From Candidatus Wallbacteria bacterium (GTDB taxonomy: Bacteria > Muiribacteriota > JAQTZZ01), in assembly GCA_028687545.1 (NCBI GenBank), contig JAQTZZ010000008.1, forward strand, positions 62,001 to 126,000: a DNA stretch of 64,000 nucleotides, in the 5' to 3' direction. The notes under the pieces are model-generated. The model did not search any database. It saw only the letters and a list, made by a program, of their open reading frames with translations, and was not told where the DNA came from. Below, piece after piece: positions 16,744 to 50,751 of this stretch (position 1 is the stretch's first letter; each line of letters opens with the position of its first letter). A program made the position numbers and the translations under genes.

Positions 16744-17996
16744 TACTTGAGTTTCACGTAATACTGCTTGCAGGCGTATTTGAAGACGTCCTCGTTAAGC
16801 TGGAACTCTTTCCCGTCAAACAGGCATTTGGCGCGGATGATCTTCAGAATGTCGCGGGGCTGGCAGGAGCGGAAAGGTCTTCCCTCTGCCTTCATGTATT
16901 TTTCCATGAACAGGTCCACCATGGGTTCGTCAAAGGGAACTTTCATGTTGTTGCAGTTTAAACGGAAAATATCCTTGTATTGCTGCGGCGAAGGGTCTAC
17001 GACATTGATCTTGTTCTGCAGGCGCCGCAGGAAGGCTTCATCCACCAGTTCTGAAGGATCGAGGTTGGTGGAGAAGACAATCAGCTGAATGAAAGGCACC
17101 TCAATTTTCTTGCCCGTATGCAGTGTGAGATAGTCCGAATTCTTTTCCAGGGGGTAAATCCAGCGGTTCAGGAGATCCCTGGGCCTGACGATCTGCCGGC
17201 CGAAGTCGTCGATCAGGAACATGCCGCCATTGGCTTTGAGATGGATCGGAGCCTCGTAGAATTTGGATGTCGGGTTCCAGATCAGATCGAGCTCCTTCAG
17301 CGTCAGCTCTCCTCCCACCACCACCGCAGGGGGAACGCAGAGCAGCCAGCGGTTGTCGAAGGTCAGCGAAGGTTCGCCTGTTTCCAGGACTTTGTGATAT
17401 GCCGGATCAAAAAGCTTGATCACCTGATTGTCGATCTCAATGGCGTAAGGCAGCAGCACCTGATTGTTGATGATGCGGGAAATGCGTTCCGCAATTGAGG
17501 TTTTGCCGTTCCCAGGAGGGCCGAACAGGAACATGGAACCGCGGGAATTGATGGCAGGCCCGATTTCCTCTATGATGGACTCAGGTATCACGAGATCGGA
17601 AAAAGCCTTCCTCACTTCCTCTGGAGAAACCCTGGTGAATTCTTTGACATGCTTCTTCATGATGTCATTATATTGGGCAAGACAGACCGGCGCAGGTCCT
17701 ATGTATTCATCACGTTCGAAAATCTCGCGCACTTTTTCCCTTCCCCGGTCCAGGATTTCGAAAATACAGTGGATGGGATGGGAGGATCCTGCGGATTCGA
17801 CTAATTTCAGCTTCTTCAATCCTTCCAGCGCTTCCAGCGTGACGCAGGCAGGAAGCTTCAGCTCCAGGGATACATCTTTACCGGTAATCCTGCCTCTTGC
17901 ATAGATCAACTTCAGGGTCAGATCCATCAGGAAGGACGCTTTCAAGCCGGTTTCTTCCACAGTTTTCGGGGAAAGGGGTCTGAATTCCATCGCCAT
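16743..17996 (-). CDS. AAA+ ATPase with N-terminal helix-turn-helix-like domain, Tad-associated
   Basis: A 417-residue protein. Residues 1-110 resemble a winged-helix fold (LMDLTLKLIYARGRITGKDVSLEL, then LEGLKKLKLVES). The AAA+ core has Walker A GPPGNGKTS near residue 160, Walker B GMFLIDDFG, a sensor-1 segment QLIVFSTNLDPSELVDEAFLRRL with its arginine finger, and a helical lid. It resembles MoxR/bacterial chaperone-like ATPases. It begins 23 bases after tadC and is followed with a one-base overlap by the radical SAM gene. Its place suggests a role in pilus assembly or in modifying a Tad-exported protein, but this is inference from neighbours only. Confidence 0.87.
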   Translation of the reverse strand: MAMEFRPLSPKTVEETGLKASFLMDLTLKLIYARGRITGKDVSLELKLPACVTLEALEGLKKLKLVESAGSSHPIHCIFEILDRGREKVREIFERDEYIGPAPVCLAQYNDIMKKHVKEFTRVSPEEVRKAFSDLVIPESIIEEIGPAINSRGSMFLFGPPGNGKTSIAERISRIINNQVLLPYAIEIDNQVIKLFDPAYHKVLETGEPSLTFDNRWLLCVPPAVVVGGELTLKELDLIWNPTSKFYEAPIHLKANGGMFLIDDFGRQIVRPRDLLNRWIYPLEKNSDYLTLHTGKKIEVPFIQLIVFSTNLDPSELVDEAFLRRLQNKINVVDPSPQQYKDIFRLNCNNMKVPFDEPMVDLFMEKYMKAEGRPFRSCQPRDILKIIRAKCLFDGKEFQLNEDVFKYACKQYYVKLK

Positions 17997-18019
17997 TCTT
18001 GTATTCTCCTAACAATTTT

Positions 18020-18958
18020 TTAAGGTTTCATCTTGTTCTTGACTGCTGCTTCATAAACACCAATTACGATTGGTGTGCCGATGATCACGAAAATGCAGGG
18101 GAAAATACATCCGACCATCGGCAGCAGCATTTTGATGGGTGCTTTCATGGCAGCTTCCTCGGCGCGCTGCCTCCTGCGCTGGCGGGCCTGAGCAGACTGG
18201 ATCCTGAGTACATTTCCAAGGCTCACTCCGAGCGTTTCTGCCTGGATCAGGGAGGAAATGAAATTCGAAAGGTCATCCACCTCCATTTTATTGGCCATAT
18301 CTTTAAGTGCATCACGTCTTTTCTTGCCAAGTTTCACTTCATTCAGAACGACCTTGAATTCGTCGGCCAGCGGACCCTCGAACTTTTCCACCACTTTGTT
18401 CATGGCAGAGTCGAAACCCAGGCCTGCTTCGACGCTTACGGTAAGCAGGTCCAGCACATCAGGCAGCTTTCTCTGGATCATGCCTTTACGAAAAGTGATC
18501 TGCTTTTTAATGTAAAAATTCGGCATCAGCATGGCCAGAATCACGGAGATCATGCCTGCCATGACAAAATTAATCATTGGCTGCCGCAGCAGGAAGCAGA
18601 TCAGCAGGCCGATAAACATGAACAGCAGTGTCAGCACAGTCCGCAGAGCCATGAACTCTTCCGCGCTCAACCCGAAGGGGTTGCCGGCCTGGGCAAGTTC
18701 CATCCTGAGCTTTTCCTTTTTAGCGCGATTGGTCTTCTTCGCGGATTTTTTGGTGAAGGAATGCAGGATCGGCAGGATGACCCTTTCCTTGAAGCTCTTC
18801 TGCAGTTCCAGTTCCGCGGCAGTGGCGATCACTTTCTTGCCGTCCTGAGTGGCAAGCATATTAAGTCGCTTCTGCATTGCCCTCTTCTGCCCGCTTGGCC
18901 AGAACATGAAGACAGCCGCCACTACTATCCCAATTCCAATCAACCACAAAGGATTCAC
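18020..18958 (-). CDS. tadC: Tad pilus inner-membrane platform protein TadC
   Basis: A 312-residue T2SF-domain membrane protein. It has an N-terminal anchor (LWLIGIGIVVAAVFMFW) and a central pair of helices (LRTVLTLLFMFIGLLICFLLRQPMINFVMAGMISV). Next comes the T2SF segment with RKLPDVLDLLTVSVEAGLGFDSAMNKVVEKFEGPLADEF, then a C-terminal hydrophobic segment. TadC forms the platform with TadB that couples the TadA motor to pilin extraction. The gene order tadA-tadB-tadC and single-base spacing to tadB confirm the assignment. Confidence 0.93.
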   Translation of the reverse strand: MNPLWLIGIGIVVAAVFMFWPSGQKRAMQKRLNMLATQDGKKVIATAAELELQKSFKERVILPILHSFTKKSAKKTNRAKKEKLRMELAQAGNPFGLSAEEFMALRTVLTLLFMFIGLLICFLLRQPMINFVMAGMISVILAMLMPNFYIKKQITFRKGMIQRKLPDVLDLLTVSVEAGLGFDSAMNKVVEKFEGPLADEFKVVLNEVKLGKKRRDALKDMANKMEVDDLSNFISSLIQAETLGVSLGNVLRIQSAQARQRRRQRAEEAAMKAPIKMLLPMVGCIFPCIFVIIGTPIVIGVYEAAVKNKMKP

Positions 18959-18959
18959 T

Positions 18960-19952
18960 TTAAACCTCTATATCCCCTATTTTCTGCATGATCATGAAGC
19001 CAATGCCTTCCATCACTCCGCAAACGAGCAACATGTAATAGGCATGGAACCAGCCTTCATGATATGTGAAAAATAAACTCATCAGGTCTGGCCGGATCGC
19101 GTAAAAACCCAGGAAAATCGCTATCGGCATCCCGGCGACTATGATCCCTGAAAGGCGTACCTGAGCTGTCAGGGTCGAAATCTGCCCCTTGATCCTCATG
19201 CGTTCCCTGATTGTATTGGAAATCCCGTCCAGAATCTCTGAAAGGTTGCCTCCGATCTGCCTTTGAATCATGATTACAGTCACAACCAGGTCGAAATCTT
19301 CACTGGCCATCCGTTCGTTAAGGTCGCGCATTGATTTTTCCAGATCCATCCCTAATCCGGACTCCCTGACGATGCGAGTGTATTCTTCGCAGGAGGGTGG
19401 GGCGGCTTCTTTTGAAAGCAGATCCAGACCCTGAAGAAAGCTGTAGCCTGCTTTGAGGGAATTGCTGAGCATGACCAGGTTGTCCAGCATCTGGTCCTGG
19501 AACTGCCTGCGCCGTTTCGCGATCTTCCTGCTGAGAATAAAGTTCGGGGCGATAAACCCGACAACTGCGGATCCAAGCCCGATCACAAAGCTTTTAAAGA
19601 GCATCATAGCCAGCGACATCGGAAGTACAGTGGAGAGCAGGATGATGGCCACGAATTCATTGGATTTGAGAGGAATATTGGCAAATTCAAGCCTTTTCTG
19701 GATATTCTGTCCGATCTTGCCTGGAGTGACGATTTTCCCTACATTCTGCAAAATATCTGACAATCTGGCCTTACCTGATTTGCCCGCATCCAGGGTCTTT
19801 TTTTCGATCCTGGCTTCCTGGGGCTTGTCATCGGAAATGGTTTTCAGTCTCTCTTTCAGAGCATCGTTCTGATTTGCGAATCCCTGAAAAGAGAACAGAT
19901 AATATACGAATGCCCCCAGAGCAATGAAGAACAGGATCATCCAGAGATTCAT
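18960..19952 (-). CDS. tadB: Tad pilus inner-membrane platform protein TadB
   Basis: A 330-residue T2SF-domain protein with the TadB layout. It has an N-terminal membrane helix ([19 protein letters not shown]), a mid-protein helix pair ([41 protein letters not shown]) and the T2SF core. The core reads [40 protein letters not shown] and [30 protein letters not shown]-terminal pair of helices follows. The start overlaps tadA by four bases, so the ATPase and platform subunits are translationally coupled. Confidence 0.94.
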
Positions 19953-21364
19953 AATTTCTCCGTAAAGATGTCAGCCGGAAGGTTCTGCCCGTGTGAGATC
20001 AGTTTGTCCATGAATTTAGGCCTGATTCCGGTCGGCTTCAATTTGCCGATGATCTTCCCTTTTTCATCCAGTCCCTGGGCTTCAAAAATGAAGATGTCCT
20101 GCAATACGACTGTCTCGCCTTCCATGCCCTGCACTTCGGTGATGTGCGTGACTTTCCTGGAACCGTCCTGCAGACGGCTCTGCTGCACTATCAGATGAAT
20201 GGCTGAAGAAATGTTCTCGCGGATGGCTTTGACTGGCAGATCCATGCCTGACATCATCACCATCGTCTCAAGCCTGCGGATCATATCGCGCGGAGTATTG
20301 GCGTGGCCTGTGGTCAGGGAACCGTCGTGGCCTGTATTCATGGCCTGCAGCATGTCCAGCGCTTCGCCTCCGCGGCATTCTCCGACGACTACCCGTTCCG
20401 GTCTCATACGCAAAGTATTCTTGATCAGGTCGCGGATCGTGACTTCACCCTTGCCTTCGATGTTTGGCGGGCGGGTTTCCAGCGATACTACGTGCGGCTG
20501 ACGCAGCTGAAGTTCTGCGGCGTCTTCCACAGTAATGATGCGCTCGTCCTCAGGAATGAATCCGGACAGGATATTGAGCGTGGTGGTTTTTCCGGAGCCG
20601 GTACCACCGGAAATTACTATATTCAGCCTTCCGTGCACACAGGCTTTGACGAAGTCTGCCATTTCCTGGGTCAGTGTATTCCAGCGCACCAGATCCGACA
20701 CCTGGAGCGGATCTTTCTTGAATTTTCTGATCGTGATCGTGGGCCCGTTGAGCGCCAGAGGCGGGATGATCGCGTTTACACGGGAACCGTCCTTCAAGCG
20801 CGCGTCCACCATGGGAGAGCTTTCATCGCAACGCCTGCCTAAGGGCGCAATGATTTTCTCGATGATGTGCAGCACATGTTCATTATCACGGAAAGTTACG
20901 TCTGAGAGCACAAGTTTTCCCTTGCGCTCGATGTACACCTGCTTAGGCCCGTTTACCATGATTTCAGAAAGGCTGTCGTCACGCAGCAGTTTCTGGATCG
21001 GACCCAGGCCCAGCACGTCGTCAAGCACATCCTCGATGATCTTCTTCTGAACAGGGGGAGCGATCTTCAGCATCCGCTCAGCAGTAAGTTTTTTCAGAAT
21101 TTCATCCAGCTTTTTACCGAAGATGTCTCGTTTTTTTTCCTCGTCCTTCTCTTTGAGAAGATCCTGATCCATTTCTTCGATTAAAGTATTCTTGATTTCT
21201 TCCATCAGGTCCTGATGGGTATTCATTCCCGAGCCGGAGCCGGATTCTGATTCATGGGCAGAACCCCTCCTCGATTCTTCAGGCTTTCTGATACCTTCAG
21301 TAGCACCGCCCTGCGGGGTAGCAGGTTTTTTTTTGTCTTCTCCCAAACGTTCCAGTAAGCCCAT
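19949..21364 (-). CDS. tadA: Tad pilus secretion ATPase TadA/CpaF
   Basis: A 471-residue GSPII_E-type ATPase of the TadA/CpaF branch, which powers Flp pilus assembly and in many bacteria retraction. The core has [22 protein letters not shown], typical of CpaF. It also has Walker [14 protein letters not shown], the Asp box [11 protein letters not shown], Walker [30 protein letters not shown] and the His box TGHANTP. The first 80 residues are a charged, low-complexity extension rich in Ser, Gly and Glu. A four-base gap separates it from the tadZ stop. Confidence 0.96.
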
Positions 21365-21368
21365 AAGC

Positions 21369-22565
21369 TCACCTCACCATTTTCTTGATTTTATCCAGAA
21401 ATCCCTCTTCCTCTTCCCTCAGGGAAAGCTGGAAAAGCTTCTGGAGAGATTCATAAATCGACTTTGCAATTCGTGACCCACTATGAGAAATCATGAACGG
21501 CACCCCTCGATTCAAGGCCTGCACCGTTATCTCACCCTCAGAAGGAATGATGACGTCGATTCTGGTGGCCAGAGTTTTTTCGATGTCATCGATGGTCAGC
21601 ACCAGATTCTTATCTCCACGGTTGAGGATCACGCTGATCTTATCCAGTGGGTAGCCAAGATCTTCCAGAATCAGCATGGTTTCCCTGGTATCTTTGAGAG
21701 CAGTGACTTCGGGTGTCAATACCAGGATCAGATGCCCATCAGATGTTTCGTCGAGAATGCAGAGTTCGATTTCCCTGATAATGGACGAAGTATCAATAAA
21801 AATATAGTCATACTTTTCCTTACTCGTAGAAACGAGGTTGTGTATGAAATCAATGTCGATGCTGTCGGCGTGCTGAGGTTTTTCCGGACACGCCAGCACA
21901 GATACGCCTGACTCATGCTTGGAAAGGTATTCATCAATCTGCATGGGATCGAAATTCTCGGTGCTTACAAGATCGAACACAGTAGTCGGATTCTTCAGAT
22001 TCATCATCAGGGCTATGTCCCCGAACTGAAGCTTCAAATCAAATATCGCCACTCTCAAGGCAGGGAATTTCTGCTTCAGGGCAATCGCTATGTTGATCAG
22101 CAGAGTAGTCTTGCCGCATCCTCCTTTAGTGGAGAAAAATGTGACTACTTTGCCGGTCTTTCGAGCCTTGGAAGCCATCTGTCTGGTCTTTTTATGCTCG
22201 CGATTGTAAACTTTACGGATGTTGCTGACCAGTTCCAGGGGGTTGAAAGGCTTGATGATGTAATCCTTGGCCCCGGCATTCATGGATTTACGCAAATACT
22301 CAGGTTCATCCTGGACCGAGATCATGATCACTGAAACATTAGGGTAAAGTGAGGTAATCTCTTCGGTTGCTTCAACGCCGTTTTTCACCGGCATATTGAT
22401 ATCCATGAGCACAATGTCAGGGGAGTTTTTTCCGCTGAAGTCCACGGCTTCCTGCCCATTGGCAGCTTCCCCTGCAACGACAATGTCTTCAGTCGCTTCG
22501 AACAATTTTTTCAGATGCTCCCGGGTTTCGGGATTATCGTCTGCAATCAGTACTCTTATTGGCAT
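21369..22565 (-). CDS. tadZ: Receiver-domain TadZ/CpaE pilus localisation ATPase
   Basis: A 398-residue protein: residues 1-125 form a CheY-like receiver and about 135-380 a MinD/ParA-like ATPase. The receiver keeps the acidic pair Asp9-Asp10, the phosphoacceptor Asp55 in LMDINMP and the lysine in DYIIKPFNP, so it looks able to be phosphorylated. The ATPase has the deviant Walker [15 protein letters not shown]. TadZ/CpaE proteins position the Tad machine, and many have a degenerate receiver. No histidine kinase lies in the window. It follows the secretin gene after a 139-base gap. Confidence 0.92.
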
Positions 22566-22704
22566 TTTTTCTACCCGTATATTTAATATGAGTTATTCTA
22601 CCACATTGTACGGGGAATAGAAAATAAGAATCAGGTCAAATGTTGGCAATTGAAATTCAGATCTGGATTGGCTTCAGGATTAAGGGTTAAGCTTACTGAT
22701 CAGA
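22566..22704 (-). other. Gap between secretin and tadZ genes
   Basis: This 139-base stretch is the widest gap inside the Tad operon. It is AT-rich near 22560-22625 and shows no ORF. A secondary promoter for tadZ could be here, but I see no convincing -35/-10 pair on the minus strand. Confidence 0.4.
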
Positions 22705-24381
22705 TTATCTCAGCGTCATCCGGTCATCCTGACCGGACTGGGCATAACCTTTTTCCGGCCTGCAGGTTGAACCAAGTATCTTGCTCCGCCTGTCAGACCC
22801 GTAGTTTTTCATCTGGTTTGTCTGATGAATTCCCAGGGGGAAGGCCGGAGAGGACGATACTGTCAGCGAAGGGGCAGGCTGGGAAGCCTTGGCTTTTTCC
22901 TCATTCTGAACCGTCTTGGCTTTGGAGGATTTTGGAACTGTCTTGGTTTTCCCGGTGTTCATGTTCAGCACCGGAACTTCGACCTCAGCAGCTTTCTGAA
23001 CAGTTACCTTTTCCACAAACTCACCTGCCCTGATTACATGAGGAGTAAGCAGGATCAGGAGTTCCGACTCGGTCTTCTTGTTGATGTTGTTATGAAAGAG
23101 TTTGCCCAGGCCGGGGATTTTTGACAGCACAGGGATTTTATCGTTGTTCTGATCAACACGCTCCCTGATCAGACCTGAAATCACGATAGTTTCACTGTTG
23201 GCACAGGTGACTATGCTCCTGGCATTGCGGCTCAGGAATTCAGGTACCACGTTCTGGTTGTTGTCCTTGGTCTGCCCATACTGCAGATCCGTGATATCAA
23301 TGGAAAGATCCAGCATCACATTGTGATTAGCTTCAACTTCAGGGGTGATGTTTACAGTCAGGCCATACTGCTCGTAGGTGAAATTTTCGGTCACCGAGTT
23401 GTTGCTGACAGTAGTGCTTCTGACAGGCACGCGTCCGCCGACAGTAAGATTGGCTGAAATTCCTGACATGGTCATCATAGTCGGGGATGAGATGATCTTG
23501 GCTTTTCCTTCTTCGATCAAGGCTTTCAGAGTACCCATCACATTATAATATCTGGTGATGGACCCGATCTTGAGATTATCATCTGAAGTGATGTTAGCAT
23601 CCCTTTTTTCCGCGAACGGGAACAATCCCTTGGCGTTTCCAGTGGAAAGATGAGCTGCAGTGATGTCTGAGCCCCAGTCCACACCGAGAGATTCCGTGGA
23701 ATTTTTGCTGATGTCAATGACTTTAGCCTCAATCATGATCTGATAGGGCTGATTGACGCGCAACAGGTTGATTACTTTCTCGGAATAAACTGAAGCTACC
23801 TGCATGGCACGATTCACATCGTTCTGGTTGCTGACTTCTCCATCCAGGATCAGTTTTTTATCCCTGATTTTGACTTTGACACCTTTGATGCCGATCAGTT
23901 CCTCGACTTCCTGCTCCAGATTCATGAATCTCTTGCCAGTATTCCGATCAGCTATTCTCAAGGAGTTAGTCACTTTATCGGAATAAACTTTGGCGATCTC
24001 CTCGGCAGTTTTCTTTTCATCTTCGCTGTCCACCACGCCTTTTAAAATGATCGCTTCCTTTGCCACTATCACTTCGATATCCTTGCCGATGGCTTCTCTG
24101 ACTTTCTCATGAAGGCTTGAATTCGAGACTGAAAGCTGGTACTGCTGCATCTCGCTGCCCATCCAGACGTAAAGTGTGGTCAGCCCGACATTTTTGGCCA
24201 TCACGAGCAGTTCATGGTCCGAGACAGCCATTACATCGGCAATGGCCGGATCAACAATGGAAACTTTGGACAAATCCTTGAACTGAAGAACTTTTGATTC
24301 CCCGGCCCGCAGATTGATCAGATTCTCGGCGAATGCTGTCACAGTAAACACCATGACTAGCAGGATTATTTTCTTCAGCAT
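22705..24381 (-). CDS. rcpA: Tad/Flp pilus outer-membrane secretin RcpA/CpaC
   Basis: A 558-residue secretin subunit with a signal peptide (MLKKIILLVMVFTVTAFA). N-terminal BON/N-domain repeats follow (LINLRAGESKVLQFKDLSKVSIVDPAIADVMAVSDHELLVMAKNVGLTTLYVW). The secretin gate region has VDWGSDITAAHL, GTLKALIEEGKAKIISSPTMMTMSG and VPVLSKIPGLGKLFHNNINKKTESELLILLTPHVI. It forms the pore through which the Flp pilus leaves the outer membrane. About 100 C-terminal residues rich in Lys, Ser and Pro extend past the family core and may be disordered. It follows cpaB with a 33-base gap. Confidence 0.94.
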   Translation of the reverse strand: MLKKIILLVMVFTVTAFAENLINLRAGESKVLQFKDLSKVSIVDPAIADVMAVSDHELLVMAKNVGLTTLYVWMGSEMQQYQLSVSNSSLHEKVREAIGKDIEVIVAKEAIILKGVVDSEDEKKTAEEIAKVYSDKVTNSLRIADRNTGKRFMNLEQEVEELIGIKGVKVKIRDKKLILDGEVSNQNDVNRAMQVASVYSEKVINLLRVNQPYQIMIEAKVIDISKNSTESLGVDWGSDITAAHLSTGNAKGLFPFAEKRDANITSDDNLKIGSITRYYNVMGTLKALIEEGKAKIISSPTMMTMSGISANLTVGGRVPVRSTTVSNNSVTENFTYEQYGLTVNITPEVEANHNVMLDLSIDITDLQYGQTKDNNQNVVPEFLSRNARSIVTCANSETIVISGLIRERVDQNNDKIPVLSKIPGLGKLFHNNINKKTESELLILLTPHVIRAGEFVEKVTVQKAAEVEVPVLNMNTGKTKTVPKSSKAKTVQNEEKAKASQPAPSLTVSSSPAFPLGIHQTNQMKNYGSDRRSKILGSTCRPEKGYAQSGQDDRMTLR

Positions 24382-24414
24382 TCAAGCCTCCTCATATTCA
24401 AAAAAAGTTTTTTC

Positions 24415-25455
24415 TCAGTCACCAACATGGATCACAGTCTGGTTCTTGGACTTGTCGACACCGGTCGATCCCTTGAGAATCATCACCTTCTGCAGTTGTA
24501 GTTCTTTCAATTTAGCCTGATGTTCATAAATTTTGACAATCTCATCGCGTTTCTGAACTCCGAGCACTTCATGCTGAACTGTCCCTGTGGAACCGATTTT
24601 TTCATCATCGAAAGGATATCTAAGCGCCAGATAAAAGAAATCCGCCTTCTCAGTTATCATCGCCAGTGCTTCCGCGTCTTTCGGCAGAACAGCAAGCGTG
24701 ACATTCGACATTTTCTTCCCTTCCATCAGCCTGAGATTCTGGGCTGGATTTCCTCCGGCTGCCGGGGCTGGTGCAGGGGCTGGTTGCCCGGGGGCTGCAG
24801 TGGTCCCGGGGGCTCCTGGGGTCCCACTGAGGGGCGCTTTTGACCCGAATTCACTTTGGTCAGGATCATATGTTTCGCCAAGAGCCAGGAGAATCGCATC
24901 TTCAACGACGATCTTGGAATATCCGTCATCGACCTCACTGGGAGATTTGAAAACAGCGATTACATCCACCCGGTCGAGCTGAGTGATCAGTCCGGAAATG
25001 ACATAATACGGATTTCCTACTTTGAGTGAGATCGCTCTCATGCCTTTTGGAATCCGCAGAGACATTTTAGTAAGATTTCTCAAATCAACAAATTGCTCTT
25101 TTTTGAGCTGCTGTGAACTCTCGATATCAACAACAGCCACCATTCCGATCACTTCATCCAGAGTTTTGCAGGTATCTTTTTCGATATCTTTGACATCAAA
25201 CTCTTTTAATTCAACGAGATCTTTATCCAGTTTGTCGCCTCTTTTGACCGGCGTTTTAGTGCAAACCACTTTTTCCAGGATGATTTTCGGAACCACTTCT
25301 GCAGTGGAAAGCTGGACCACCTGAACTTCCTGAGTTGCTTTAGGTGGAAGTTTCTTAGGCTTAGGGGTACCCCCGGTCCAGCCCATCAAGCTTGCGAAAA
25401 CCCAGCAGAGAGCTCCCATGAATATCAAAACAATAATCCGTTTTTGGCGTCCCAT
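24415..25455 (-). CDS. cpaB: Flp pilus assembly protein CpaB/RcpC (SAF domain)
   Basis: A 346-residue protein with a single N-terminal membrane helix (RIIVLIFMGALCWVFASLMGW) and a periplasmic SAF domain, VPKIILEKVVCTKTPVKRGDKLDKDLVELKEF. A CpaB core follows with MRAISLKVGNPYYVISGLITQLDRVDVIAVF. Between about residues 215 and 245 a Pro/Ala/Gly-rich stretch (APGQPAPAPAPAAGG) interrupts the domain. The family helps assemble the Tad secretin and may bind peptidoglycan through the SAF domain. It is the first gene of the operon as seen here; pilin and prepilin peptidase genes are not in the window. Confidence 0.92.
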   Translation of the reverse strand: MGRQKRIIVLIFMGALCWVFASLMGWTGGTPKPKKLPPKATQEVQVVQLSTAEVVPKIILEKVVCTKTPVKRGDKLDKDLVELKEFDVKDIEKDTCKTLDEVIGMVAVVDIESSQQLKKEQFVDLRNLTKMSLRIPKGMRAISLKVGNPYYVISGLITQLDRVDVIAVFKSPSEVDDGYSKIVVEDAILLALGETYDPDQSEFGSKAPLSGTPGAPGTTAAPGQPAPAPAPAAGGNPAQNLRLMEGKKMSNVTLAVLPKDAEALAMITEKADFFYLALRYPFDDEKIGSTGTVQHEVLGVQKRDEIVKIYEHQAKLKELQLQKVMILKGSTGVDKSKNQTVIHVGD

Positions 25456-26515: not shown

Positions 26516-27562
26516 ATGAGAAAAGCAACGTATTTTCTGACTTTATGTCTCCTGCTGGCGTTTACAGCTGCAGCCTTTGCCGGGGATCGTGTCTACAAAA
26601 AAAATATCAGCCACAACCGTGGCAGATTCACTGACCCCAAAGCATATTTCGAGAAAATCGATATCCCCAACGACTGGAAAAACAGTGGCTGGATATTTTA
26701 CAGATTTGAAGTAGTTCCATCCGGCAGGGCACAGGTTCTGACACCCAGTCTGAGCCCTAATGCATTTGTTTTCAATTTCATGCTTAACAAATCCTTCGCC
26801 GAAGCTGTCTCTGGAACAGTGACTGTCCTGCTTTTCGCCCATCAGAACAGCCAGACTGTAAACTACCCTGTTGCTGTCGCCGGGCAGCCTACTGCCAACA
26901 ACTGGTATTATCCCGGCCAGACCTATACGATCACCGTAGACCGCACCAGAAAGATCAGAAAGATCAATGTCTACTGGACTGATGCAGGCGGGAATTCTCA
27001 CGGCACTCTTTATGTTGACGGCAGATCGTACGGGGCTAAAGATGTCGGCAACTATGACCGCGACGGATGGACACTGAACTGCTTTGCCACTCAGATTACG
27101 ATCATTCCTACTCACGACGCCTTCCAGATGCTCGACTGCCAGGTGGAATACGAAGGTTATCCTGTCAATCCCGGCTATCCCAATAACCCGTATTATCCAA
27201 ACAACCCTTCATATCCCAATAATCCTTACTACCCCAATAACCCATACTATCCCAATAATCCTAATTATCCCAATAATCCGAACTACCCGAACAATCCTTA
27301 TTATCCGAACAATCCCTCCTACCCCAACAACAATAACACTCCCTCAGCTCCACTCACACCTTATACTCCACCGAGCCCTTACAGCCCGGCTGTACCGATT
27401 CAGCCCAATAACCCCGGTAATCCTACTCCTTCAACTACTCCAACTACTCCTACCAACAATCCTGCTCCTACTGCTCCGACGAATCCGACATACAATCCCA
27501 ATGTCACACCTCATCCATCCGGTCCTACCCCGGGCTCTCATATCCCTGGAACTCCCCATTAG
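26516..27562 (+). CDS. Secreted protein with YPNNP tandem repeats
   Basis: A 348-residue exported protein. The signal peptide is MRKATYFLTLCLLLAFTAAAFA. Residues 23-215 form a folded domain of unknown family, rich in aromatic residues and beta-prone (WIFYRFEVVPSG, TGTVTVLLFAHQ-like segments, NNWYYPGQTYTITVDRTRKIRKINVYW). From about residue 218 to 275 there is a tandem YPNNP repeat with the fifth residues alternating between Tyr, Ser and Asn. A Pro/Thr/Ser/Asn-rich tail then runs to the end. Low-complexity proline-asparagine tails usually make extended, surface-exposed stalks or cell-wall-spanning linkers. It has its own consensus promoter and terminator, so it is a single-gene, strongly expressed unit. 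Function unknown. Confidence 0.85.
   Translation: MRKATYFLTLCLLLAFTAAAFAGDRVYKKNISHNRGRFTDPKAYFEKIDIPNDWKNSGWIFYRFEVVPSGRAQVLTPSLSPNAFVFNFMLNKSFAEAVSGTVTVLLFAHQNSQTVNYPVAVAGQPTANNWYYPGQTYTITVDRTRKIRKINVYWTDAGGNSHGTLYVDGRSYGAKDVGNYDRDGWTLNCFATQITIIPTHDAFQMLDCQVEYEGYPVNPGYPNNPYYPNNPSYPNNPYYPNNPYYPNNPNYPNNPNYPNNPYYPNNPSYPNNNNTPSAPLTPYTPPSPYSPAVPIQPNNPGNPTPSTTPTTPTNNPAPTAPTNPTYNPNVTPHPSGPTPGSHIPGTPH
27168..27335 (+). repeat. In-frame YPNNP-coding tandem repeat
   Basis: About a dozen repeats of 12-15 bases with the pattern TAY-CCN-AAY-AAY-CCN encode Tyr-Pro-Asn-Asn-Pro units. Third-codon positions vary between repeats, so selection at the protein level maintains the unit. Length variation by slippage would be expected. 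Confidence 0.85.
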
Positions 27563-27685: not shown

Positions 27686-27851
27686 TTGGCAAATTTCTGT
27701 GGTGTCCAGCCAGATGTTCTGCCGAAACCTTGATTTGTGGCGGGTCCTGTCCTGGTGCAACTTTTTCTCTCCTTCGGCAGGCTCAGTGCGCTAAAAAGTT
27801 GTACCTGGCCACCCCACAAGGGTTACAGGGTATACTCTGGAAATTTGCCAA
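27686..27851. repeat. Palindromic element C, left bracket of the BMC/radical SAM module
   Basis: A 166-bp element whose ends are perfect 12-bp inverted repeats (TTGGCAAATTTC at 27686-27697, its complement at 27840-27851). Inside, TTGTGG at about 27735 and CCACAA at about 27820 bound a nested palindrome containing AACTTTTT and AAAAAGTT and a CCTTCGGCAGG mini-hairpin. An inverted copy (element D) lies at 30336-30498, with over 85 percent identity across the 88-base core by eye. A perfect 11-bp direct repeat, TTGAGTAAGTT, flanks it at 27671-27681 and 27859-27869, with a few unmatched bases in between on each side. No ORF is encoded. It ends 18 bases before the acylphosphatase ATG. Confidence 0.8.
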
Positions 27852-27869: not shown

Positions 27870-28145
27870 ATGCCGATTATAACCAGAAAAATCATTGTCA
27901 GCGGCAGTGTGCAGGGCGTAGGATACAGAGCCTTTGTCAGAAGAAAAGCCCTTGGTTCCGGGATCAAGGGATATGTGACAAACTGCGAGGATGGAACAGT
28001 CGAAGTGATTTATCAGGGCGAGCTGGGCTTGTTCCAGGAGTTCATTTCACTGCTCCTGACAGGCCCTTCCATGAGCAGCGTCGAAGATCTCAATGTCGCT
28101 GAAATTGAAGGTCCTGAAATTTACTGGGATTTTACGGTGAAATAA
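27870..28145 (+). CDS. acyP: Acylphosphatase
   Basis: A 91-residue protein with the acylphosphatase signature: VSGSVQGVGYRAFVRRKALGSGIKGYVTNCEDGTVEV. The conserved Arg of VQGVGYR and the Asn of GYVTN, the two catalytic residues, are both present. Acylphosphatases hydrolyse carboxyl-phosphate bonds; the physiological substrate is rarely known. The normal length is about 90 residues. Its stop overlaps the next ATG by one base (TAATG), making it the first gene of a four-gene operon. No strong ribosome-binding site is visible. Confidence 0.94.
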   Translation: MPIITRKIIVSGSVQGVGYRAFVRRKALGSGIKGYVTNCEDGTVEVIYQGELGLFQEFISLLLTGPSMSSVEDLNVAEIEGPEIYWDFTVK

Positions 28146-28633
28146 TGGATGTTTCTCTCGGATTGCTTGAAAGTACCTGCCTCACCGGAGCTGTGGAGGT
28201 TCTGGATTTCATCCTGAAAAAAGTTTCGGTGACTGCGGGATTCAGAGAATACCCTGGCAATGGACTGGTGACTGTGGCCTTTACGGGAACCACCGCTGAT
28301 GTCAGGGAAGCAGTGGACAGCGGAAGCGAACACTTGAAGCGGTTCGGCTGTTATCACTCCTCCACTCAGATTCTGAACCCTGCGCCCGGGCTTCTTGCTG
28401 CTTTCGGGTTGAAAGAGAAAGTGCCCATGCAGCCTCCCAATAGAATCAATTCAAAGCCACGCGCTGAAAAGCAGCCTGAGAGTAAAATTTCAGAACAGAC
28501 AAAAAAAACGGAAATCCCTCAATCGATTCAAGAATCCCTTCCTCTTCCAGAGCCAAAAATACCTGTCAAACCGCATTGCAATTTCATCTGCTCGCTCTGC
28601 AATGACCTGACCTGCACGGAACGCTGGCAATGA
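28145..28633 (+). CDS. BMC-domain protein with C-terminal four-cysteine tail
   Basis: A 162-residue protein. Residues 1-85 match the bacterial-microcompartment shell fold: SLGLLESTCLTGAVEVLDFILKK, then VTAGFREYPGNGLVTVAFTGTTADVREAVDSGSEH and a VHVIPRPH-like strand (STQILNPAPG). Charged linker residues 95-140 are rich in Lys, Pro and Glu. The tail ends with Cys145, Cys149, Cys152 and Cys157 (CX3CX2CX4C), a spacing that could hold an iron-sulfur cluster or zinc. Ordinary BMC-H shell proteins form icosahedral organelle facets. Here no other shell or enzyme gene of a compartment is seen. It overlaps the radical SAM gene by four bases (ATGA), so the products are made together. Confidence 0.82.
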   Translation: MDVSLGLLESTCLTGAVEVLDFILKKVSVTAGFREYPGNGLVTVAFTGTTADVREAVDSGSEHLKRFGCYHSSTQILNPAPGLLAAFGLKEKVPMQPPNRINSKPRAEKQPESKISEQTKKTEIPQSIQESLPLPEPKIPVKPHCNFICSLCNDLTCTERWQ

Positions 28634-29388
28634 TCGTCTGCATTCCCCGTAAAACCTTCGTGGTCTCAGTGACTGGCGGGAACTGCGAATTATCCTGCGA
28701 TTTCTGTGCCAGGCATTATCTGCAGGCAATGAAAAAAATCAGCGATATCCCGTCAGATAATCTGAAATACACATCACTGCTCATCTCTGGAGGCTTTCTC
28801 AGAAACGGAACCCTGCCTCTTCCTGAAACTGATCTTTTCAATACGCTGTCGTCCAGATTCAGGATCAATCTTCATCTCGGGTTTTTCGACCGGAATCTGG
28901 AACGGATGATAAGGCTGAAAAATCAGGTTTCTGTAGTCTCATTCAATTTTCTGCCTGTCAGGTCGGCCATTGCACATATTTCCAGGGAATTCAAGGAGAA
29001 AGATTACCTTGACTCCTATCAAAAATACCAGGAAATCGGTTTCAGGGTCGTTCCCCACATCCTTCTCGGATTATGCCCTGGGGATGACGAGCTTTCCCTG
29101 ATCCGGAAACTGAAGCCGTTCGCTCCGGATAAAACAGTGCTGCTGGTAAAAATTCCCCTGGAGAAAAGTGCAGAAAGAATCGACTTTCAAAGGATCCGGA
29201 AATTCATCCTCACTCTCAAAGAAACCATCCCGCAGTCTGAAATCATCATCGGATGCATGAGGCCTGGCGGAGAATGGCGGAAAAGAAACGACCCTCGACT
29301 GGTTGAGCTCCCGGTTTCGACGATTGTCAATCCTGCTCCCGGGCTTTTCCCGGATCACGGGGTTTCAGAGGAGTGCTGCGTCTTATGA
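28630..29388 (+). CDS. Radical SAM protein, LipS2-like
   Basis: A 252-residue radical SAM protein with the cluster-binding CX3CX2C at Cys19, Cys23 and Cys26, followed by ARHYLQAM. The region TSLLISGGFLRNGTLPLPE, then VVPHILLGLCPG and IIIGCMRPGGEWRK, matches a family usually called biotin-synthase-like. Its relatives include LipS2, which with LipS1 inserts sulfur atoms into octanoyl groups to make lipoate in some archaea and bacteria. The next gene looks like LipS1, which supports that reading. No lipoate ligase, octanoyltransferase or glycine-cleavage gene is nearby, so the substrate is an inference. The start overlaps the BMC gene by four bases. Confidence 0.78.
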   Translation: MIVCIPRKTFVVSVTGGNCELSCDFCARHYLQAMKKISDIPSDNLKYTSLLISGGFLRNGTLPLPETDLFNTLSSRFRINLHLGFFDRNLERMIRLKNQVSVVSFNFLPVRSAIAHISREFKEKDYLDSYQKYQEIGFRVVPHILLGLCPGDDELSLIRKLKPFAPDKTVLLVKIPLEKSAERIDFQRIRKFILTLKETIPQSEIIIGCMRPGGEWRKRNDPRLVELPVSTIVNPAPGLFPDHGVSEECCVL

Positions 29389-30329
29389 GAGCTTCCCTGG
29401 CAGCTGGAAAAATCATCTTATCTTTCCCCGGCAGGCTGGAGTCCATCCCGCCTTGCACAACAGCTTATTTTATCGTCGGTGGCAGCTGCACTGGAAAATG
29501 TCTTTTCTGCAGCCAGTCCAGGCTGAGCGGCAAGCAGCCAGGTCACAGCAGGCTCTCACGGGTAAGCTGGCCTGAAATCGAGCTCCCGGTTCAGGAGATA
29601 ATCCGGAGAGTCAACCAGATCAGCGAATTCAGAAGGTCCTGTTTCCAGTGCACCAGAAAACTCAGCCTGCAGGACTTGCGGGAAATGACGGAATTCTGCA
29701 GAATTGCAATTAAACCTGTTTCCATCTCAGCTTCACCGGATTGCGACCCGGAAGCGTTGCTCGCTCTGCCTGCTGTCGACCATCTCAATCTCTCCCTTGA
29801 CTGTGCAACTGAACGGCATTTCAGCGAAATGAAAGGAGGCTCCTGGGATGAATTCTGGCAGCTGCTGGAGCGCCTGGCCAGGACTTATCCTGGTAAAATC
29901 AGGACACATCTGATCGCCGGACTGGGTGAAACTGATCAGGAATTTCTGGACACCATGCTCAGGCTGAAAAACATAGGCATCGGCTGGGGTTTGTTTTCTT
30001 TTTTTCCGCTTGCAGGTACGCCTCTTGCACAGCGAGGGAGAATCCCTCGAAAACGCTACCGTTTTCTGCAGATGGCCAGTTATTGTCTGCAGAACAACCT
30101 GCTCAATTCAGGTGATTTCAGTTTGAAGGATGACTTTATCTGTGGTTTTAAAATCGAAAATCAGGCAATCCGGGAAATCGCAGGTTCAGGAAAACCCTTT
30201 CTGACCAGCGGCTGTTCAGGATGCAACAGGCCGTTTTACAATGAAAGTGCCCGTGAAGAGCCTTATAATTTCCATCGCCCTCTGACTGAGGGCGAAATCG
30301 CCAGGATAATCAGTGAATTATTTGATTAA
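29385..30329 (+). CDS. Radical SAM protein, LipS1-like
   Basis: A 314-residue radical SAM protein with CX3CX2C at Cys35, Cys39 and Cys42 (GGSCTGKCLFCSQSR). The C-terminus has TSGCSGCNRPFYNESAREEPYNFHRPL, the strongly conserved end of the LipS1-type lipoyl synthase family, including a second cysteine pair that may bind an auxiliary cluster. Start 29385 is chosen over 29373 because its ATG overlaps the upstream stop (ATGA). Together with the preceding gene it should form a two-component sulfur-insertion enzyme. Another biotin-synthase-like activity remains possible. The stop lies only six bases before element D. Confidence 0.8.
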   Translation: MRASLAAGKIILSFPGRLESIPPCTTAYFIVGGSCTGKCLFCSQSRLSGKQPGHSRLSRVSWPEIELPVQEIIRRVNQISEFRRSCFQCTRKLSLQDLREMTEFCRIAIKPVSISASPDCDPEALLALPAVDHLNLSLDCATERHFSEMKGGSWDEFWQLLERLARTYPGKIRTHLIAGLGETDQEFLDTMLRLKNIGIGWGLFSFFPLAGTPLAQRGRIPRKRYRFLQMASYCLQNNLLNSGDFSLKDDFICGFKIENQAIREIAGSGKPFLTSGCSGCNRPFYNESAREEPYNFHRPLTEGEIARIISELFD

Positions 30330-30335
30330 AGGAAA

Positions 30336-30498
30336 TTGGCAAATTTTCCCTTAAATCAACTAAATCAATGTGGGGTGGCCAGGAATAACTTTTTAGCGCA
30401 CTAAGCCTGCCGAAGGAGATAAAAAGTTGTTCCAGGACAGGACCCGCCACAAATCATGATATTGCACTACATATGGCTGCACACCATAAAAATTTGCC
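30336..30498. repeat. Palindromic element D, inverted copy of element C
   Basis: A 163-bp element. Its reverse complement aligns with element C along the whole length, for example TGATTTGTGGCGGGTCCTG, CTCCTTCGGCAGGC and GCGCTAAAAAGTT. Its ends pair as GGCAAATTTT with AAAATTTGCC. The GCCACCCCACA side faces the radical SAM genes, as in element C, so the two copies point inward towards the gene module. It is immediately followed by element A with no spacer. Confidence 0.8.
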
Positions 30499-30770
30499 TA
30501 GAACCCATTTCATAAGTCTGCGTCACCGCGTTGCCTTGCACATGCAAGCATTTCGAGGCCATCCGGTCGAAGGTGATGCGGCGCATCATCAAGACCGGAT
30601 AACGAAGAAATGCGCAGCTTGTGCTGGCAACCCTCCGGGTTCGGGCTGCAAAATTCAAAAGCGTCGTTGCGGTTCGTCGGAAATGCACCACATTGCCTTC
30701 CTCACCGCGCCTAGCTTTTGAACTTCGGAGCTTCGAACGCGGCTGACGCAGACTTATGAAATGGGTTCTA
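30499..30770. repeat. Hairpin element A with perfect 27-bp terminal inverted repeats
   Basis: A 272-bp element bounded by TAGAACCCATTTCATAAG and onwards (30499-30525) and its exact complement (30744-30770). The repeat extends another eight or so bases with one bulge. It starts and ends with TA, as expected of a TA-duplicating IS630/Tc1-type insertion. Inside are nested hairpins (ATCCGGTC with GACCGGAT; GCATTTC with GAAATGC) and a TTCAAAAGC/GCTTTTGAA stem that encloses a 48-nt core (30665-30712) shared with element B. Small ORFs run through it on both strands but look incidental. It fills the 448-base gap between the LipS1-like gene and 30778 together with element D. Confidence 0.82.
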
Positions 30771-30777
30771 AACAGAG

Positions 30778-31785
30778 TTACTTCCCATCTACACCGAATC
30801 CGCTATAGTGTTTCTCCCCAGTATTCTCCATATTGAACTTTACCTTGGCGTCCACAGGCATCATTTTCAGAGCCTGTTCGAAGAATTCCCGGGCTTTCCT
30901 GAAATCACCCAGCTTGGAATAAATAATGCCGACTTTGTTCAGAATGTCGGGATCCACTTTTTCCTTCATCGCTGCCTCAAAATAACGCAGTGATTCCTTG
31001 TATTTCTGATCATAGAAATAGATGTTGCCCAGATTGTTGAAAACATCATAGATCGGATATTCGCCGATAAATTCAAACTCACCCGCTGTTTTCGTGAAAT
31101 ACGGCAGATCCCTGTCATAGTTCAACTCACTGGCATCGTAGAGAATCACGAAAGCCTTGTTCTGGGCGAAAGTGACCAGGTTTATCTGCTTGAAAAGCAA
31201 TTCGTTCCCGAACACCATTTTCTTTGTATATGTGGTCATCTGCTTGAAAAAAAGCACTTCGCTGGAGTTCTGGTACATTTCCTTGGTGATGCGGGCAGTG
31301 TCGTCAGGCAGAAGCCCTTTCAGGATCTTTTCAGAAGTCTGCACCATCTGTTTTTCATTTTTCGGGTACTGCCTCAGGTCAGGATACTCCTCGGGCAGCA
31401 TTTCGATCACATACATTTTGATCAAAGTGGCGTCTTCCCTGATATCTTTTTCCTTGGAAAGCGTGATCAGCAGGTTGTCTTTCAGATCTCCTTCCTTCAG
31501 GTACCAGAAATCCGCTGGCATCGGGAAAGCGATCTTGAACTTGAAATTCCTGTATGATCCTTCAAAAATGCCTGTTGAATGCTCCGAAAAAACCAGGCTT
31601 TCGATCTTGTCTTCCTTGATCTTCACCTGCTCACCTTCAGGGCTGGCCAGATAAACAGTGTTGTCAGAAAGCTCCTTGACCTTGCCGTGCAGAATCACGC
31701 CGTTCTTTAAAAAGAGCGTGTCCGCATAAGCTGCAGTCAGCATGATTAAAAAAGCCGCCAAAACCGCAATTCTAATTTTTCCCAT
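30778..31785 (-). CDS. Secreted TPR protein with N-terminal SH3/Lsm-like segment
   Basis: A 335-residue exported protein. The start at 31785 is chosen because AGGAG lies four bases before that ATG; an in-frame ATG at 31809 lacks a ribosome-binding site. The signal peptide is MGKIRIAVLAAFLIMLTAAYA. Next is DTLFLKNGVILHGKVKELSDNTVYLASPEGEQVKIKEDKIESLVF, a small beta-barrel type segment common in secreted bacterial proteins. A mid-region resembles a PsbP/lipoprotein-like fold, and the C-terminus has two TPR units (YDVFNNLGNIYFYDQKYKESLRYFEAAM). It overlaps the upstream gene by 14 bases. Function unknown. Confidence 0.82.
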   Translation of the reverse strand: MGKIRIAVLAAFLIMLTAAYADTLFLKNGVILHGKVKELSDNTVYLASPEGEQVKIKEDKIESLVFSEHSTGIFEGSYRNFKFKIAFPMPADFWYLKEGDLKDNLLITLSKEKDIREDATLIKMYVIEMLPEEYPDLRQYPKNEKQMVQTSEKILKGLLPDDTARITKEMYQNSSEVLFFKQMTTYTKKMVFGNELLFKQINLVTFAQNKAFVILYDASELNYDRDLPYFTKTAGEFEFIGEYPIYDVFNNLGNIYFYDQKYKESLRYFEAAMKEKVDPDILNKVGIIYSKLGDFRKAREFFEQALKMMPVDAKVKFNMENTGEKHYSGFGVDGK

Positions 31786-33020: not shown

Positions 33021-33638
33021 TCACAATTTGATTTCTGAACGCGAATCCCTAAGATTATCCGTCAACACAGGTTTCAAAAGCTTGATTTTATCGGTAAAAT
33101 CCTGCCTGACCTGTTCGTCGACTATACCTGGGAGATTGATCATCACATTCAGTTCGGCTCCGGAAAAAGCAGTGTCCAGCAGGCATCCAGCCACTCCCAC
33201 ATCCGAGACGGCGTGCCTGATACCGAGCCTGGCCAGCACCGGAAGTTCCCGCGACAGGCTGACGGCAAGTTCGAGCGTATGGAGTGGGACCAGGGTGGCT
33301 TCGACGCTGGCGGTATTGATGGCTGATTTTCTGGCTGCCTTTTCCGCGTCATTGCTTGGCTTTTGCTGCATGGCACAAAGCAGAGAGTTGAAAGCGCAGG
33401 CATCCAGATCAGCGAGCCTTAGGAACTCTTCCCTTCCAGGCTGCGCAATTGACGCGATCCTGCGCATTTCACTATGACTTTTCACGTATTTTCCGTTCTT
33501 CAGGGTGAGGTTCGATACCATCAGCATCAGAGCTGCTCCGCAGGCCCCGGCAACTGCTGCTGCCGCCCCTCCGCCAGGTGTAGGGGCGTCTGATGAAAGC
33601 CCTCTCAGGAATTCATCTATCTTCATCTCTTTGAACAA
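33021..33638 (-). CDS. fchA: Formimidoyltetrahydrofolate cyclodeaminase / methenyl-THF cyclohydrolase family (FTCD_C)
   Basis: A 205-residue FTCD_C protein. The N-terminus FLRGLSSDAPTPGGGAAAAVAGACGAALMLMVSNLT is the family hallmark, with the TPGGGAAAA folate-site loop. The fold is all-helical and dimeric. Members either deaminate formimino-THF or act as methenyl-THF cyclohydrolases in one-carbon metabolism; the two cannot be told apart here. The frame opens with TTG at 33638, six bases after a GGAGG, and an ATG four codons further in is also possible. It starts 15 bases after glmU. Confidence 0.9.
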   Translation of the reverse strand: MFKEMKIDEFLRGLSSDAPTPGGGAAAAVAGACGAALMLMVSNLTLKNGKYVKSHSEMRRIASIAQPGREEFLRLADLDACAFNSLLCAMQQKPSNDAEKAARKSAINTASVEATLVPLHTLELAVSLSRELPVLARLGIRHAVSDVGVAGCLLDTAFSGAELNVMINLPGIVDEQVRQDFTDKIKLLKPVLTDNLRDSRSEIKL

Positions 33639-50470: not shown

Positions 50471-50751
50471 CTAGTGGTCCGCCACACTTAAATTTGTGCT
50501 TTCAGAAACATGAGATCGAGACAGATTCGCGAAGCGGCGACAAGGCAACCTGGGCTGGTTGCCGCGACAGCCGCGACAAAGAAGCTGACCGATATCATGT
50601 TTCATCCCTCGTTGATTGCCGGGTGGCGGCGATCCGTCTGCTGCGTTGCGGTTCGTCGAAAATGCACCACATTTTCTTCCTCACCGCGCCTTGCATCCGA
50701 ATCCCCGGCACTCCGGCTGAAATCACAAATTTAAGTGTGGCGGACCACTAG
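50471..50751. repeat. Hairpin element B with perfect 28-bp terminal inverted repeats
   Basis: A 281-bp element. CTAGTGGTCCGCCACACTTA and onwards (50471-50498) is complemented exactly at 50724-50751, and the match extends to 35 bases with one mismatch. A TA sits one base inside each end. Inner stems include GAAACATGAGATCG with CGATATCATGTTTC, and GGCAACC with GGTTGCC. The 48-nt core at 50644-50691 matches element A at 45 of 48 positions, while the arms are unrelated. It fills the gap between the HAD gene and the DPBB-type lipoprotein gene, whose stop codon lies in its right arm. Small ORFs inside are considered incidental. Confidence 0.82.

Follow-up and report, generated by a model that had tools for sequence, protein, structure and literature searches.

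Sulfur insertion at C8 and C6 of the octanoyl chain by the radical SAM proteins LipS2 and LipS1, in which each enzyme spends an auxiliary [4Fe-4S] cluster, is established for the Thermococcus pair. The cluster ligands of the Thermococcus kodakarensis proteins are the CX3CX2C motif, C230, C276, C277 and probably H159 in LipS1 (TK2109), and the CX3CX2C motif, C85, C276, C279 and H178 in LipS2 (TK2248) (PMC9585515). Catalysis uses up the auxiliary cluster of each enzyme, and when electrons come from ferredoxin and ferredoxin reductase, LipS1 completes 1.5 turnovers and LipS2 completes 1 (PMC9585515); so low a yield with the physiological reductant means that a cluster supplier is needed. For the lipoyl synthase LipA, NfuA rebuilds the cluster as fast as catalysis proceeds (PMC9585516). 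For LipS1 and LipS2, the only loading of clusters shown so far is in vitro, by the scaffold SmsB2C2 of Thermococcus, which can charge both enzymes directly, with no carrier (PMC12442378). The partners named in the lipoate literature are ligases, LipM, LipT, GcvH and Hdr-like proteins (PMC10332631, PMC9585515).

Bacterial microcompartment (BMC) shells include PduK, a poorly characterised BMC-H protein of the propanediol microcompartment with a tetracysteine extension that is described as a possible Fe-S cluster ligand (PMC6325248). Satellite shell genes, lying away from the main BMC locus, are common (PMC8217296). Text searches of two BMC locus catalogues found no mention of lipoate genes, and a literature search found no paper joining microcompartment, lipoyl and radical SAM.

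The DNA stretch analysed here (the window, 64,000 nucleotides of a Candidatus Wallbacteria contig) contains a plus-strand operon encoding, in this order, an acylphosphatase, a BMC-domain protein, LipS1 and LipS2 (Table 1). Successive genes overlap by 1, 4 and 4 bases, in agreement with the 1-4 bases of the original prediction: the acyP/bmc junction is TAATG, the bmc/lipS1 junction is ATGA, and the last overlap is counted from an ATG at 29385, which would give a LipS2 of 314 aa; the alternative in-frame start, GTG at 29373, gives 318 aa. The predicted acylphosphatase and BMC domain were both recovered by Pfam, and the BMC-domain gene is, as had been noted, single: no other shell gene occurs within the window.

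Table 1. Features of the operon (window plus strand, 27870-30329) and of one gene outside it.
Feature	Position	Strand	Evidence
acyP, acylphosphatase, 91 aa, operon gene 1	27870..28145	+	PF00708 E 6.1e-22; VQGVGYR and GYVTN motifs visible
bmc, single-domain BMC-H protein (predicted), 162 aa	28145..28633	+	PF00936 E 2.9e-13
C-terminal tail of the BMC protein, PVKPHCNFICSLCNDLTCTERWQ, C-X3-C-X2-C-X4-C	28562..28630	+	tail model A1
lipS1, 252 aa; homology points to sulfur insertion at octanoyl C6	28630..29388	+	NF053742 E 9.8e-49
lipS2, octanoyl C8 sulfur insertion by homology	29373..30329	+	NF053743 E 5.5e-73
FTCD_C/FchA-like protein (methenyl-THF cyclohydrolase), outside operon	33024..33638	-	PF04961 E 4.2e-50; NF045657 132/275 bits

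The radical SAM pair belongs to the LipS1/LipS2 families, without a serious NCBIfam competitor. The pair had been recognised correctly but with its labels exchanged: the third gene, which carries the ARHYLQAM motif, encodes LipS1 and the fourth, with TSGCSGCNRPFYNE, encodes LipS2. The third protein matched the LipS1 model NF053742 over its full length with 166 bits, below the cut-off of 230, and no other NCBIfam family exceeded 13 bits; this LipS1 is thus diverged. The fourth matched the LipS2 model NF053743, also over its full length, with 246 bits, below the cut-off of 270. The corresponding LipS1 of Muiribacterium, described below, scored 218 bits, and the LipS2 proteins of Muiribacterium and of a second relative exceeded the cut-off (270.4 and 271.7 bits).

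In the alignments, C19, C23, C26, H143 and C209 of the window LipS1 are common to 99-100% of 67 LipS1 rows, and C39, C43, C46, C90, H179, C281 and C284 of the window LipS2 to 99-100% of 102 LipS2 rows. The C-terminal C249-C250 of LipS1 (EECCVL) was read directly from the sequences, and the CC pair occurs also in the two relatives. Judged from these residues, every ligand mapped experimentally in Thermococcus LipS1 and LipS2 is kept in the window pair.

No second LipS1 or LipS2 was found in the window genome. LipA was not found in this genome (a 32-bit match lies far below the cut-off of 310) nor in the two other genomes in which the operon or part of it recurs, and all three genomes encode GcvH. 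The idea that these lipS genes form a specialised paralogue set was discarded, the genome having neither a second pair nor LipA. The window genome's GcvH gene adjoins genes resembling glycine decarboxylase subunits (by inspection), and an LplA-type ligase (PF21948, 2.7e-27) is encoded 3' of a glyA-like gene on contig C23, so that, of the proteins that were to be looked up, an LplA-like ligase and GcvH are present; the other PF03099 protein is BirA. A lipoyl E2 was considered as lipoylation target and rejected: from neighbouring sequences, the PF00364 matches look like biotin-carrier or efflux-type proteins, which leaves GcvH as the likely target. With no LipA, a sole LipS pair and GcvH present, the operon very likely encodes the housekeeping lipoyl synthase for glycine cleavage.

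The locus resembles the sLpl(AB)-LipS1/S2 pathway of T. kodakarensis in its two co-encoded radical SAM proteins with the mapped ligands, in the presence of GcvH and in the absence of LipA. It differs in its partners: where the Thermococcus pathway has a ligase and LipT, this operon has genes for a BMC protein and an acylphosphatase, and the window genome's ligase is encoded elsewhere. A tree of LipS1 places the three proteins linked to BMC genes in one group with that of locus L096 (support 98/96), which is arranged gcvPB-lipS1-lipS2-lplA; long branches make the exact placement of the group unsure. The BMC-linked LipS2 proteins grouped weakly (62/47).

The second gene product matches the Pfam BMC model at residues 4-79, above the curated cut-off; this is its sole Pfam match, and no NifU C-terminal domain (PF01106) was found in it. 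The protein consists of a BMC domain (residues 1-88), a disordered linker (89-141) and a tail, HCNFICSLCNDLTC, with four cysteines at residues 145-157, a feature absent from the original description. AlphaFold2, run with an alignment of only two sequences, gave pLDDT values of 79-93 for residues 1-90 and below 50 for most of 93-162. In Foldseek searches the predicted domain matched EutM and PduA (E 3e-6 to 7e-6), with target TM values of about 0.8 for EutM, PduA and CcmK. The BMC fold, which had been put forward for checking, is thus confidently predicted to be a single, non-permuted BMC-H domain, and from its family the protein would be expected to form a hexamer. It keeps D21 and the edge lysine K25 of shell proteins (D-x3-K); the canonical IPRPH edge motif and the GSG pore motif are changed. 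In a BMC-domain tree whose long branches leave the placement of the two tail proteins unsettled, branch lengths were 4.71 for the window protein and 0.97 for the Muiribacterium copy, and 0-0.2 for most BMC-H proteins of main loci.

The closest described architecture is that of PduK, which shares the BMC-H domain (30% identity over the domain), the linker and a C-terminal cysteine motif. In Escherichia coli PduK (NC_009801), SCNLCLDPACQRQKGEPRSLC is followed by only a few residues before the C-terminus, and the core C-x-L-C-X4-C is common to it and the window tail. The fourth cysteine precedes this core in the window protein (C-X3-C), whereas in PduK it follows at some distance (C-X2-C-X4-C...C). 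Gene context also differs: PduK-type genes lie in a catabolic microcompartment locus, the window gene in a lipoate operon.

The recurrence that the original prediction proposed to look for was found in a search of 57 relatives. Candidatus Muiribacterium halophilum (G002; PKTG01000043.1, L078) has all four genes in the window's arrangement, acyP-bmc-lipS1-lipS2, with identities to the window proteins of 38% (acyP, over 84 aa), 34% (BMC), 37% (LipS1) and 38% (LipS2). Its BMC protein has 308 residues, the linker being a long charged stretch. A second genus of the window genome's family (G001; the window genome is G000) has the last three genes, with the same ATGA bmc/lipS1 junction and the same TPR-protein neighbour as the window; its contig ends inside bmc, and the comparison covers tail-lipS1-lipS2. 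This bmc gene (L106:2370-3004) has an in-frame TAA within the last 60 bases of the contig, either an assembly error or a broken gene. Across the three genomes the operon proteins are 29-45% identical. All three are metagenome-assembled genomes of uncultured bacteria, and two belong to one family. The combination of BMC protein, LipS1/LipS2 and acylphosphatase is therefore real and recurrent. None of the outcomes that the original prediction named as grounds for its rejection was observed: the BMC match is significant, the gene set recurs, and the radical SAM pair does not fall into an unrelated family.

The cysteine tail is linked exclusively to lipS1. Among 40 genomes of the phylum, tail model A1 matched these three at 58-63 bits, always directly before lipS1, and nothing in the other 37 above about 17 bits. 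The four tail cysteine codons are all TGC in the window and all TGT in Muiribacterium, four synonymous changes that indicate selection on the protein. About nineteen other genomes of the phylum carry LipS2 without the tail. In 80 LipS2 loci from GTDB genomes, reaching beyond the phylum, no BMC or acylphosphatase gene stands beside LipS except in Muiribacterium; at one archaeal locus (L082) an unlinked acylphosphatase gene lies on the opposite strand.

Given that LipS1 and LipS2 consume their clusters and that NfuA replenishes LipA, we predicted before searching that carriers of the tail protein might lack Nfu. PF01106 gave no match in any of the three genomes, against matches in eight of the nine further phylum genomes tested; the exception, G016, has no tail and no GcvH match either. 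With four absences in 12, the chance that three given genomes all lack Nfu is 4/220 (0.018). Among control genomes PF01106 was matched in only 5 of 14 and absent from 9, Nfu being missing from many anaerobes and archaea. Since two of the three genomes come from one family and the absence of Nfu is common elsewhere, this pattern is taken as support and not as proof.

A BMC protein with a cysteine-rich tail in the sole lipoate operon of the genome suggests that the fold was taken over to supply or organise Fe-S chemistry. Our preferred explanation, held tentatively and at somewhat less than even confidence, is that the operon makes the lipoyl cofactor and that a BMC hexamer with Fe-S- or metal-binding cysteine tails serves LipS1 and LipS2 as a dedicated scaffold or carrier and not as a shell tile. 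LipS2 and then LipS1 would insert sulfur at C8 and then C6 of octanoyl-lysine, as their conserved ligands suggest, most likely on the glycine cleavage H protein. The co-translated hexamer would carry six flexible extensions with a four-cysteine knuckle at every tip; the tails would take up an Fe-S cluster or metal and, with the protein in contact with LipS1 and LipS2, would hold or reload the two enzymes. The BMC protein would then take for LipS1/LipS2 the part that Nfu has for LipA: like NfuA and NFU1, it would rebuild a sacrificed auxiliary lipoyl synthase cluster, with a different fold and without an Nfu domain. The acylphosphatase may be an accessory that, speculatively, frees octanoate from octanoyl-phosphate for an LplA-like ligase. 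The more specific proposal, that the shell fold was co-opted away from any organelle and now acts in place of Nfu, as a hexameric Fe-S carrier by which LipS1/LipS2 are reloaded, we consider doubtful.

The exclusive tail-lipS1 linkage, the very long BMC branch and the absence of Nfu favour the carrier, as does an operon order kept at 29-45% protein identity between differing flanks. Several observations weigh against it: G016 lacks Nfu without having the tail; Nfu is missing from many anaerobes and archaea; SmsB2C2 can load the Thermococcus pair with no carrier; about nineteen other phylum members have LipS2 and no tail; and the sample consists of three assembled genomes, two of one family. The scaffold or carrier of the original prediction, in place of a true shell, is thus tentatively favoured; a second, separate locus leaves room for a satellite shell protein.

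On contig C16 of the window genome (L107:8618-17872), BMC-H, BMC-T and BMC-P genes occur with DeoC, RpiB, PduL, AldDH and RnfC-like genes (PF01791, PF02502 and PF06130 confirmed, the remaining genes by inspection). This arrangement fits the sugar phosphate utilisation (SPU) type of PMC8217296, and complete or near-complete SPU loci are present in all three genomes. The DeoC of the C16 locus has an N-terminal Cys-rich stretch (CSFCDPGNCTGCGYC), and a GAF/HD-GYP-like protein is embedded in the locus. As the main SPU locus is on another contig, the lipoate operon would count as a satellite BMC locus under the definition in the literature. Like described satellites it places a bmc gene at a distance from a main locus, but those hold shell genes or pathway enzymes, and here there are lipoate genes.

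The main rival to the carrier is accordingly that the tail protein enters the shell. It would be a minor BMC-H of PduK type in the SPU microcompartment, its tail would have a redox or metal-binding function, and regulation would explain why its gene is expressed together with lipS1/lipS2. This is a real possibility: SPU loci accompany the operon in all three genomes, the BMC-H fold retains D21 and K25, PduK itself joins a BMC domain to a related tetracysteine tail, and distant satellite shell genes are common. Against it stands the distribution, the tail being in no other searched genome of the phylum although many carry BMC genes, and its gene always overlapping lipS1. The window's BMC domain is also far more diverged than the main-locus BMC-H of the same genome, and it has lost the canonical motifs of the edge (PRPH) and of the pore (GSG).

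That the genes have no functional link, being unrelated small genes co-transcribed in an operon kept by descent, we regard as improbable. The operon is confined to three genomes in two families, and it is not evident what an acylphosphatase would do in lipoylation; yet the overlapping order persisted between changing flanks while the proteins fell to 29-45% identity, the tail was conserved through synonymous change, and lipS loci elsewhere in the phylum moved freely, with PilB/T-like and DnaK/DnaJ-like neighbours (by inspection). Very improbable is a hexamer tethering LipS1/LipS2 to the SPU compartment, for instance to pass the by-product 5'-deoxyadenosine to its aldolase route: the SPU locus co-occurs, its DeoC/RpiB pair handles sugar phosphates and 5-deoxyribose salvage ends in DHAP and acetaldehyde (PMC6079011), but the salvage described so far runs through a class II aldolase and an isomerase of MTR-like type instead of DeoC/RpiB (PMC6079011), lipoyl synthase turnover is probably too low to need an organelle, and in many genomes with SPU and LipS genes the two are not linked.

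What is new here is a LipS1/LipS2 operon with a PduK-like BMC partner. To our knowledge, its BMC protein would be the first of this fold to be connected with the making of a cofactor and not with an organelle. The operon supplies a concrete, expressible candidate partner for LipS1/LipS2, and the poorly understood PduK-type cysteine tail gains a testable role.

The flanks of the Muiribacterium operon differ from those of the window, the one exception being an FTCD_C gene of weak similarity. In Muiribacterium this gene lies directly 3' of lipS2 (E 7e-4, below cut-off), and its pairwise similarity to the window's FTCD_C/FchA-like gene is weak (E 4e-5). A shared neighbour was for this reason not accepted and is retained as a hint; the window gene is a possible functional neighbour of the operon.

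Two inverted repeats of 88 bases, 93% complementary, flank the operon (window 27731-27818 and 30369-30456), and a third related copy adjoins the SPU locus (L107:8436-8620). The repeat is thus dispersed, and mobilisation of the operon as a cassette by these flanking copies is unsupported. A second dispersed repeat family (window 30490-30779 and 50644-50694), with terminal inverted repeats of about 35 bases, resembles a small non-coding mobile element. Upstream of the operon, positions 26516-27559 encode a protein that looks secreted, contains a degenerate NPYYPN repeat and is matched by no Pfam family, preceded on the minus strand (16746-25455) by a gene run that by eye resembles a Tad/Cpa-type pilus cluster, with secretin-like, CpaB-like and CpaF-like genes.
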